Shown: positions 41,427 to 45,702 of the stretch, piece after piece
How the letters are laid out: the number at the start of each line of letters is the position of its first letter
Numbering within the stretch: position 1 is the first letter of the stretch
Assembly: GCF_002804025.1 (NCBI RefSeq)
Contig: NZ_CP024969.1
Location: forward strand, 248,001 to 312,000
DNA: 64,000 bases
Direction: 5' to 3'
Source: Mesoplasma tabanidae
GTDB lineage: Bacteria > Bacillota_I > Bacilli_A > Mycoplasmatales > Mycoplasmataceae
Made by a program: the position numbers and the translations under genes
Notes under the pieces: model-generated
What the model saw: the letters and a program-made list of their open reading frames with translations, nothing else
Told to the model about the DNA's origin: nothing
Databases searched by the model: none

Positions 41427-41457
41427 TTGCATTAAAGTAGGTTTAATCTTTTACAAT
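41427..41457 (+). promoter_or_regulatory. MerR-type promoter of merR
   Basis: -35 TTGCAT (41427-41432), a 19-base spacer with dyad ATTAAAgtaggTTTAAT, and -10 TACAAT (41452-41457). The long spacer with a centred dyad is the hallmark of promoters activated by MerR-family proteins. It implies autoregulation. Confidence 0.75.
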
Positions 41458-41490
41458 AAAATAAATAACGAAATTATTAAAGGAGTAAAA

Positions 41491-41847
41491 ATGGAAAAAT
41501 TATATATGAAGGATATATCAAAAGAACTTGACATCCCAGAATACGTTTTAAGGTTTTATGACAAAAAGGGATTATTTCCGTTTTTTGAAAGAGATGAAAA
41601 TAATTACAGATATATTAAAAGAGAAAAACTTGAATGAGTTAGAATTGTTTCATGTTTAAAAAAATCAGGTATGCCTTTGCTTAAGATTAAAGAATATATT
41701 AATTTGGCTTTAGAAGGCAAGAATACTTATCCTAAAAGATTAGAAATGATGCTAGAACAAGAAAAAGTTGTTAAACAAAAAATGCAAGAATTGCAAGAAC
41801 AATTAGACTACATTAACTATAAAAAAAATTTATATCAAAATAATTAA
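41491..41847 (+). CDS. MerR-family transcriptional regulator (AdhR/NmlR-like)
   Basis: A 118-aa regulator. The N-terminal winged helix is MEKLYMKDISKELDIPEYV, then LRFYDKKGLF with the conserved Arg-Tyr-Tyr-type motif and NNYRYIKREKLEW. A single Cys55 in IVSCLKKSGMPL sits where AdhR and NmlR proteins have their carbonyl- or thiol-sensing Cys. A coiled-coil dimerisation helix makes up the C-terminus (LEMMLEQEKVVKQKMQ onward). The ATG follows AAGGAG. It lies before an aldo/keto reductase gene, and both genes have matching promoters. Confidence 0.88.
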
Positions 41848-41854
41848 AAAACTA

Positions 41855-41885
41855 TTGCATTAAAGTATGTTTAATGAAATATGAT
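41855..41885 (+). promoter_or_regulatory. MerR-type promoter of the aldo/keto reductase gene
   Basis: -35 TTGCAT (41855-41860), a 19-base spacer with dyad ATTAAAgtatgTTTAAT, and -10 TATGAT (41880-41885). The segment from -35 through the dyad differs from the copy at 41427 by one base. Confidence 0.75.
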
Positions 41886-41919
41886 TGATTTGAGTTAAAA
41901 AGCTCAAAGGAGATAATTT

Positions 41920-42906
41920 ATGAAAACAAGAACATTAGGCAAAGATTTAGTTGTTTCTGAAATTGGATTAGGATGCATGGGGTTAAGTTTTAGTCAACCA
42001 CCATTTCCAACAAAAGAAGAAGCTATTAATCTTTTAAGAAAAGCATATGAAGAAGGTGTTACTTTTTTTGATACTGCTGAGATATATGGTCCATTTGATA
42101 ATGAAGAAATATTAGGTGAAGCTTTTAAAGATATTAGAGATAAAGTTATTATTGCTACAAAGTTTGGTTTTTCATATGAAGGAAGAAATATAACTGGAGT
42201 TGATAGTAGCAGAGAAAACATTTTAAGAGCTGTTGAAGGTTCATTGAAAAGATTAAAAACAAACTATATTGATTTATATTATCAACATAGGGTTGATCCC
42301 AAAACTCCAATTGAAGAAGTAGCACAAGTAATGAAAGAATTAATGGAGCAAGGGAAAATTAAACATTGAGGGTTAAGTGAAGCATCAGCTAATACTATCA
42401 GAAGAGCTCATGCAATTTGTCCTGTTACAGCTTTGCAAAGTGAATATTCAATGTTTTGAAGAGAAGCAGAAGTAAAAGTCATACCTACATTAGAAGAACT
42501 AAATATAGGTTTTGTTCCCTTTTCACCATTAGGTAAAGGATTTTTAACAGGGACAATTAAACCTGGACATGTTTTTCCTGAAGGCGACTTCAGAAATACT
42601 GTTCCCAGATTTAATACACCAGAATATTTAGAAAACAATTTTAAATTAGTTAAATATATTGAAGAGCTAGCAAAAATAAAAAATACAACACCAGCTGCTA
42701 TTGCAATTGGTTGATTATTAGCTCAAAAACCATGAATAGTACCAATTCCTGGAACTAAAAAAATTGAAAGACTTAAAGAAAATAATTCTGGTGCTCAAGT
42801 TACATTCTCAAAAGAGGAATTAAAAAATATTAAGATAATACTAGATCATATTGAACTAGTGGGTAATAGATATAATGATTTAAATGAAAGCAGAATAGAC
42901 AAATAA
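41920..42906 (+). CDS. Aldo/keto reductase
   Basis: An NADPH-dependent reductase of aldehydes and ketones, 328 aa, of the AKR11/YhdN-like group. It starts [18 protein letters not shown]. The catalytic tetrad is visible: Asp and Tyr in FFDTAEIYG, Lys in IIATKFGF and His in LYYQHRVD. The cofactor end is [15 protein letters not shown]. The likely job is removal of reactive carbonyls such as methylglyoxal, which glycolysis-dependent mollicutes produce. A MerR-type promoter precedes it, so it is probably induced by such compounds (inference). It is complete. Confidence 0.93.
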
Positions 42907-42924
42907 TTAAAATATTTTTTAAAG

Positions 42925-42946
42925 AATAGCAATTGCTATTTTTTTG
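42925..42946 (+). terminator. Terminator after the aldo/keto reductase gene
   Basis: Perfect 16-base palindrome AATAGCAATTGCTATT followed by T residues. Confidence 0.8.
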
Positions 42947-44279: not shown

Positions 44280-44286
44280 TAAATTA

Positions 44287-44310
44287 AAATCAGTAAAGCT
44301 GATTTTTTTT
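44287..44310 (+). terminator. Terminator after pgi
   Basis: AAATCAG-TAAAG-CTGATTT followed by T residues. Confidence 0.85.
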
Positions 44311-44392
44311 ATTTCAATGCTCATATTTTAATAAATAAATATTTTATAAGATAAAATCATTAATATATTATTAAAACCATAAGGAGAAATAT

Positions 44393-44896
44393 ATGATTAG
44401 AAATGAAACTCTTAAATGATTGAGTGAACAACAAAACTTTTTAGATAATAAAATAATAGAGAAACATAATTTAACATTAGATCATGATATGTTTAGAAAA
44501 AAAATAATAGCTTTTTGAGTTGAATTAGGTGAATATGCTAATGAAGAAAAGAGTTTTAAATATTGAAAACAAGGCGCACCTGGTGGTAGAGAAGTTCAAC
44601 TAGAAGAATATATTGACGGATTACATTTTATTATTAGTTTAGGAAATCAAATTAAATATAATTTTGAAGTTTTTAATTTTATTGATTCAGGTTATGACAA
44701 TAACATTGATTGCTATTTTGAATTAATTCAAGATTTAACAAACTTAGTAAATAAACCAAATGATGAAACATTTGCTAAAATGTTTAATTCATTCTTACAA
44801 ATTGCAAAGATTCAAAATTATTCTGAAGAAGAATTAATTAAAACTTACAAAGCAAAGCATGAAAAAAATCAACAAAGACAAGTAGAAAATTACTAA
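44393..44896 (+). CDS. dut: Dimeric dUTPase (all-alpha type)
   Basis: A 167-aa all-helical NTP pyrophosphatase of the dUTPase_2 group, not the common trimeric beta type. The metal-binding acidic residues are seen in FWVELGEYANEEKSFKYWK near residues 41-59 and EEYIDGLHFIISLGN near 75-90. The enzyme splits dUTP to dUMP and keeps uracil out of DNA, complementing the ung gene in this window. The ATG follows AAGGAGAAAT, and the SpoU methyltransferase gene begins one base after the stop. Confidence 0.85.
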
Positions 44897-44897
44897 A

Positions 44898-45653
44898 ATG
44901 GAAAAAATAACATCAACATCAAATAATAAAATTAAATATATAGTTAGATTAAGAGAAGAAAAGAAATTTCAAGCTGAAGAGCAATTATTTTTTATTGAAG
45001 GATTGCACATGGTTAAAGAGGCAATTAAAAGAAACATTATTATAACAATATTTTTAGAAGAAAGAATGCTGAATAAAGTTGAAAACATAGCTAAATTTGA
45101 ATGCATTTTAATTTCAGATAATGTTTCAAATAAAATTTCATCAACAAAAACAAGTCAAGGAATTTTTGCAACTTGTAAATTAGAAGAACAAGAAATTAAT
45201 TGTGATAAAAATATTTTATTACTTGATCAAATTCAAGACCCAGGTAATATGGGAACATTAATTAGAAGTGCTGCTTCATTTGACTTCCAAACAGTCATTG
45301 CATCAAATAATTCAGTTAGTTTTTATAATCCTAAAGTTTTAAGATCAACGCAAGGGAACTTATTTTCTATTAGTTTGGTTAATAATGATTTATTAAAAGT
45401 CATTAGTGAATTAAAAGAAAAAGGTTATTTAATTATAGGAACAGTTTTAAATGAAGAATCAAAGTCTTTAAAACAAGTTAAATTTATTGAAAAACAAAAG
45501 TATGGAATAATAATTGGCAATGAAGCTAAAGGCATAAGTTTAGAATTACATGACTTAATAGATATTAATTTAAACATTGAAATGAGTAATGAAGTTGAAT
45601 CACTAAATGCTGCAATTGCTGGTTCAATTATCATGTATAACATTAAAAAATAA
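44898..45653 (+). CDS. SpoU-family RNA 2'-O-methyltransferase
   Basis: A 251-aa TrmH/RlmB-like enzyme with a trefoil-knot SAM fold. The three SpoU motifs are LLLDQIQDPGNMGTLIRSA, GIIIGNEAKGIS and VESLNAAIAGSIIMYNI, and the N-terminal RNA-binding part begins ITSTSNNKIKYIVRLREEKK. It methylates ribose 2'-OH in rRNA or tRNA, but the exact position cannot be read from sequence. It begins one base after dut. The closest pattern is the Bacillus YsgA-type rRNA methylase. Confidence 0.9.
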   Translation: MEKITSTSNNKIKYIVRLREEKKFQAEEQLFFIEGLHMVKEAIKRNIIITIFLEERMLNKVENIAKFECILISDNVSNKISSTKTSQGIFATCKLEEQEINCDKNILLLDQIQDPGNMGTLIRSAASFDFQTVIASNNSVSFYNPKVLRSTQGNLFSISLVNNDLLKVISELKEKGYLIIGTVLNEESKSLKQVKFIEKQKYGIIIGNEAKGISLELHDLIDINLNIEMSNEVESLNAAIAGSIIMYNIKK

Positions 45654-45671
45654 ATAAATTTAATTTTTGTG

Positions 45672-45702
45672 TTGCCTTATAGTAGGTTGAATGTTTTAAA
45701 AT
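45672..45702 (+). promoter_or_regulatory. MerR-type promoter of gapN
   Basis: -35 TTGCCT (45672-45677), a 19-base spacer containing the related dyad TTATAgtaggTTGAAT, and -10 TAAAAT (45697-45702). It matches the two MerR promoters 3.8-4.2 kb upstream at most positions, including AGTAGGTT. Confidence 0.65.

Follow-up and report, generated by a model that had tools for sequence, protein, structure and literature searches.

A candidate MerR1 regulon joining an aldo/keto reductase and GapN in Mesoplasma tabanidae

Three promoters of closely matching design precede merR1, an aldo/keto reductase (AKR) gene and gapN in Mesoplasma tabanidae, and we consider it probable that together they form one regulon under an NmlR/AdhR-like MerR1 that may serve carbonyl defence. 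Methylglyoxal is made by glycolysis, and near-minimal cells have to cope with it. The regulon is of interest because it would provide, in a near-minimal model, both a testable carbonyl-defence circuit and promoters that might prove inducible. If true, it would be among the very few gene circuits predicted in near-minimal cells.

Results

The analysis centred on a window, by which we mean the whole stretch of 64,000 nucleotides that was analysed. In it, the merR1 promoter (41427..41457, + strand) reads TTGCAT-taaagtaggtttaatcttt-TACAAT, the AKR promoter (41855..41885, +) reads TTGCAT-taaagtatgtttaatgaaa-TATGAT and the gapN promoter (45672..45702, +) reads TTGCCT-tatagtaggttgaatgttt-TAAAAT. All are of MerR type, with exactly 19 bases between the -35 and -10 boxes, and they share the pattern TTGCMT, an AGTAKGTT core, a 19-bp spacer and TANNAT. 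A sequence-only reading had described these three promoters, and all three 31-mers (3/3) were recovered exactly where it had placed them. The gene order, merR, AKR, pgi, dUTPase, SpoU-type rRNA methylase and gapN, likewise agrees with it.

Each spacer holds a putative operator, for which no strand is assigned. All three operators are 15 bases long and begin with the final -35 base. Operator 1 (41432..41446) is TTAAAGTAGGTTTAA. Operator 2 (41860..41874) is TTAAAGTATGTTTAA, and its inverted-repeat arms (41853-41864 and 41870-41881) are 92% complementary. Operator 3 (45677..45691), TTATAGTAGGTTGAA, combines a left half of the type associated with a second regulator, MerR2, with a right half of MerR1 type; its symmetry is weak (6/15 positions). 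The arrangement typical of the MerR family, a dyad operator within a 19-20 bp spacer between -35 and -10, is found at all three window sites, and it is kept in relatives.

Chance does not readily produce this arrangement. With both boxes, the core and the 19-bp spacing all required, the window has three matches at 0 mismatches; dinucleotide shuffles of the window, with up to two mismatches allowed, gave a mean of 0.05 matches, and three were reached in 0/100 shuffles. Across the whole genome of 846,907 bp, TTGCMTNNNAGTAKGTT with at most one mismatch occurs only at the merR1, AKR and gapN sites, each time exactly, so the genome scan that had been proposed as a check turned up no unrelated matches; the reversed control of the same whole-genome scan gave one. 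M. florum promoters have no clear conserved -35 box (PMC7745072), which makes an invariable TTGCMT 19 bp from the -10 box exceptional. A relaxed version of the full promoter pattern, applied to seven congeneric genomes, hit exactly four places in five of the seven, namely merR1, AKR, gapN and a short-chain dehydrogenase (SDR) gene behind the second MerR gene. Looser dyad searches of the genome for more regulon members stayed at background level (99 matches, forward plus reverse, vs 95 for the reversed-pattern control). Perfect 15-mers at G000:6301 and 760575 were discarded as further sites, as they lie inside ORFs and have no -35/-10 boxes at 19 bp.

The merR1 and AKR sites stand out from their surroundings. 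In the merR1 promoter 29 of 31 columns are invariant among six genomes, compared with 16/47 upstream and 8/39 downstream; for the AKR promoter the count is 26 of 31, compared with 0/11 upstream and 20/35 downstream. Both sites, at 19 bp, are kept in four congeners and in G003 and G059, which belong to other genera, and G010 carries the same three sites at merR1, AKR and gapN. The AKR operator has the same orientation as here in G008-G011 and is inverted in G007. There, both the merR1 and AKR promoters retain TTGCAT, the 19 bases and the -10 box, with the asymmetric operator reversed in place (TTGAACCTACATTAA). Inverted AKR operators also occur in G031, G037, G046 and G054, and the 19-bp spacing at inverted operators was confirmed in G007, G037 and G046. 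Inversion in place at a fixed spacing is expected of a dimer-binding site, not of a core promoter element. Several genomes of genus g8 have a symmetric operator, TTAAAGTAACTTTAA, at 19 bases before a MerR-AKR pair, and Spiroplasma platyhelix has the same symmetric site before an AKR gene adjoining a MerR gene. Taken as phylogenetic footprinting, these patterns support the interpretation that the merR1 and AKR sites are real MerR sites, and we regard merR1 and AKR as very probable MerR1 targets.

Two broader generalizations did not survive. Linkage to an AKR is not a general Firmicute feature: among 80 retrieved relatives, an AKR of >100 bits lies within 3 kb in only 9, and about half of these are Mollicutes. 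A recognition-helix code, in which PEYxL would mark asymmetric operators and NESAL or SEQTI symmetric ones, is contradicted by G052, where one MerR accompanies both site types, and by G049 and G053, where other helices accompany asymmetric sites.

Apparent decay of the locus was seen in two genomes. In the G009 merR1 gene (L005:1501-1854) codon 23 is a TAA stop although both operators are intact, so that it may be a pseudogene or contain a sequencing error. In G012 (L129:10469-10646) there is a clean-looking merR1-AKR deletion between a 5-formyl-THF cyclo-ligase-like gene and pgi, what is left being the beginning of the merR1 promoter region, now fused to the terminator of the AKR gene. The genome's only AKR was lost along with merR1, and the sole other MerR gene, that of MerR2, is a broken reading frame.

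The regulator itself, merR1 (41491..41847, +; TGA read as Trp), encodes a MerR-family protein of 118 aa with an N-terminal MerR winged helix-turn-helix (PF13411, 45.7 bits; PF00376, 38.1 bits; both above cut-off). Among solved proteins whose function has been described, its best matches are structures of Haemophilus influenzae NmlR (HI_0186; 5D8C, 5D90, 5E01), and the alignment with chains 5e01/5d8c (E 2e-19) is gapless. The protein has one cysteine, Cys55, in register with the HI_0186 cysteine, so that the earlier placement of this residue at the AdhR/NmlR sensor position is borne out. It sits in the CLK.[ST]GM motif that marks the NmlR/AdhR clade, in an alignment where C55 is invariant; among 31 aligned homologues Cys55 is kept in 27, including all AKR-linked ones, and the four exceptions are of the MerR2 type linked to SDRs. 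In both AdhR and NmlR the formaldehyde response needs the aligned cysteine (PMC4776306, PMC3499171).

MerR1 is nonetheless distinct from these regulators. The NmlR equivalog NF041849 is its best family, yet the score of 65.8 bits falls far under the 175-bit cut-off, and we therefore label it NmlR/AdhR-like rather than NmlR. Like MerR1, AdhR (YraB) of Bacillus subtilis is a small MerR-type protein with one conserved cysteine and carbonyl-related targets (PMC4776306, PMC3499171); its reported targets are adhA, yraC and yraA, whereas the putative targets of MerR1 are AKR and gapN. H. influenzae NmlR has three conserved cysteines to MerR1's one (PMC3499171) and controls the glutathione-dependent adhC. 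The linked gene here is an AKR instead of the thiol-dependent class III alcohol dehydrogenase associated with the NmlR/AdhR clade. Elsewhere, in G044 (L017:1495-2912), the gene immediately after a MerR1-like one encodes a zinc alcohol dehydrogenase (Pfam assignment), recalling the AdhR-AdhA pairing, and L024 and L028 have neighbours that look similar to it.

The AKR gene (41920..42906, +) matches PF00248 at full length (residues 14-308, 255.9 bits) and is the only PF00248 gene in the genome. The nearest solved structures are perakine reductase, IolS and GSP69 (general stress protein 69). Against the NCBIfam model for methylglyoxal reductase YdjG (NF049922) it scores 136.4 bits, below the cut-off of 550. 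No PF00903 glyoxalase was detected in this genome or in any of the seven congeners.

We put the chances as roughly even that MerR1 senses reactive carbonyls, methylglyoxal among them, or some kindred thiol-reactive signal. Aldehyde sensing combined with a hand-off of NADPH is reasonable because of the protein families involved and because of the response of Streptococcus mutans to methylglyoxal, in which AKRs are induced and gapN belongs to a core response common to methylglyoxal, fructose and H2O2 (PMC12077213). The main competing account accepts the regulon and assigns Cys55 a signal other than aldehydes, such as disulfide or oxidative stress, hypochlorite, quinones or metals, with NADPH from GapN going to thioredoxin or ribonucleotide reduction. 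A lone cysteine can sense many thiol-reactive agents. Also favouring this account, G003 has a MerR1-like 19-bp site (L134:1060-1162; TTGCAT-N19-TAATAT, operator TTAAAGTAAGGTTAA) before a pyridine nucleotide-disulphide oxidoreductase resembling CoA-disulfide reductase, and models of syn3A send NADPH to ribonucleotide reductase, with thiol repair expected (PMC6609329). Counter to this, the gene most often paired with the regulator in different genera belongs to a carbonyl-reducing family, the AKRs, and another genome of the family has a zinc alcohol dehydrogenase (Pfam) beside its MerR gene. A non-aldehyde signal seems to us a serious contender with somewhat the poorer prospects, and a carbonyl-type signal remains our working interpretation.

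The third gene, gapN (45734..47152, +), encodes a non-phosphorylating GAPDH. The protein scores 460 bits with 3prl and 451 bits with 1euh, vs 254 for the best succinate-semialdehyde dehydrogenase, and S. mutans GapN (1EUH) and the NADP-GAPDH 3PRL belong to the same enzyme family over the full length; against the curated archaeal NADP-GAPDH model it scores 302 bits, short of the 780 required. Judged by these alignments, the product is a true GapN homologue. The gene is present in 60/60 family genomes. A 19-bp promoter of MerR type precedes it in 7/7 congeners. G003 has one too, although its gapN is unlinked to merR1-AKR and lies beside a tuf-like gene; of the other gapN loci inspected 0/22 have it, several of them from genomes that do have the merR-AKR pair. 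G059, similarly, has the merR1-AKR sites and none at gapN. Since the gapN site is limited to this genus and a single neighbouring one, gapN seems to have been recruited later, to a merR-AKR pair that already existed. Conservation cannot single out the gapN site among close congeners, whose gapN leaders are alike over their whole length. The literature searched holds no description of MerR control of gapN.

We consider gapN a likely MerR1 target, possibly a shared one. The idea of a single MerR regulon, as first proposed, is therefore well supported for merR1 and AKR, whose sites other genera keep, and less so for gapN, which may belong to MerR2. The statement that this organism has few regulators agrees with the two MerR genes that we found and with literature reports of few transcription factors in such genomes. 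The second MerR gene, merR2 (about G000:C1:199943-200425), encodes a paralogue 43% identical to MerR1 with Leu in place of Cys55, and is followed by two tandem SDR genes, merR2 and these together spanning L126:444-2693 (G000:C1 about 199943-202192). Between merR2 and the SDR genes lies a fourth 19-bp dyad promoter, which the sequence-only reading had overlooked (TTGCCT-N19-TAAAAT, TTGCCTTATAGTAACTATAATGTTTTAAAAT). Its operator is symmetric, TTATAGTAACTATAA, whereas MerR1 operators are asymmetric, and the enzymes differ too, SDRs vs AKR. No 19-bp promoter was seen directly before merR2 itself.

The gapN gene could belong with the SDRs to a MerR2 regulon, or answer to both regulators, leaving MerR1 with only merR1 and AKR. 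Arguing for this, the gapN and MerR2-linked SDR promoters share the -35 box TTGCCT, TTATAGT as left half-site and GTTTTAAAAT around the -10 box, and in G007 both promoters carry TTATAGTAACTATAA, a pure MerR2-type site at gapN. Arguing against it, the right half-site at gapN is the MerR1-type GGTT(G/T)AA in G000 and G008-G012. Further, G003 has one MerR gene only, a MerR1-like one adjoining AKR, with 19-bp promoters on merR1, AKR and the unlinked gapN, which favours MerR1 as the gapN regulator in that genome. The single MerR of G052, with both asymmetric and symmetric sites, indicates that the type of a site is no strict guide to its regulator. The merR1 promoter and the MerR2-linked SDR promoter differ from the gapN promoter to about the same extent, which weakens the case for MerR1 at gapN. 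From the hybrid operator and the MerR2-type site in G007, the regulator of gapN may be MerR1 or MerR2, or the two may share it; we judge assignment to MerR2 or to both, with MerR1 confined to its own gene and AKR, rather unlikely, and MerR1 control of gapN the better reading. More speculatively, and with little expectation that it is correct, the hybrid operator might integrate MerR1 and MerR2 signals, perhaps via a heterodimer, gapN having swapped regulators by half-site substitutions within one genus.

The gapN promoter persists in G012 despite the merR1 deletion and the broken MerR2 frame, which calls for caution in reading function from a promoter alone. This persistence would suit the notion that the three promoters are simply similar constitutive or core-promoter elements outside MerR1 control, a notion that we consider very improbable given that there are only three such sites genome-wide, adjoining merR and its partner, that the 19-bp spacing is constant, that other species have the operator reversed at an unchanged position, and that the published M. 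florum promoters lack the -35 conservation seen here.

Discussion

We propose that a MerR1 dimer would bind the 15-bp operator between the -35 and -10 boxes, whose 19-bp separation should be too long for good open-complex formation. On a signal sensed via Cys55, MerR1 would distort the DNA and switch the promoter on, thereby activating its own gene, the cell's only AKR and, in this genus, gapN. The cell's capacity to reduce carbonyls would then rise in step with glycolytic NADPH when electrophiles or aldehydes cause stress. Aldehyde defence by the regulon is plausible; that the coupling benefits the cell through AKR use of the NADPH supplied by GapN is a more tentative suggestion, which we hold at somewhat below even chances.

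The comparison with minimal cells gives this proposal its context. In Syn3A, GapN is described as the main NADPH producer and as essential (PMC6609329), and JCVI-Syn3A is reported to lack a glyoxalase system, an aldose reductase and an efficient detoxifier, its handling of methylglyoxal being described as unidentified (PMC9426524). Most Mesoplasma relatives keep a single AKR beside a dedicated sensor, and they appear to couple it to GapN. A literature search covering the main texts of articles found no paper describing a merR1-AKR-gapN regulon. In a review of M. florum, 0 of its tested promoters were inducible (PMC10884336), and the three promoters would be natural candidates for inducible ones.

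A further layer of control could exist at the AKR gene. A hairpin is predicted in its 5'UTR (41889..41908, +; -6.7 kcal/mol, z -2.7), directly before the Shine-Dalgarno sequence, and could tune translation. Similar stems, their loops varied, are predicted for G003, G008, G010 and G059; the G009 leader folds differently.
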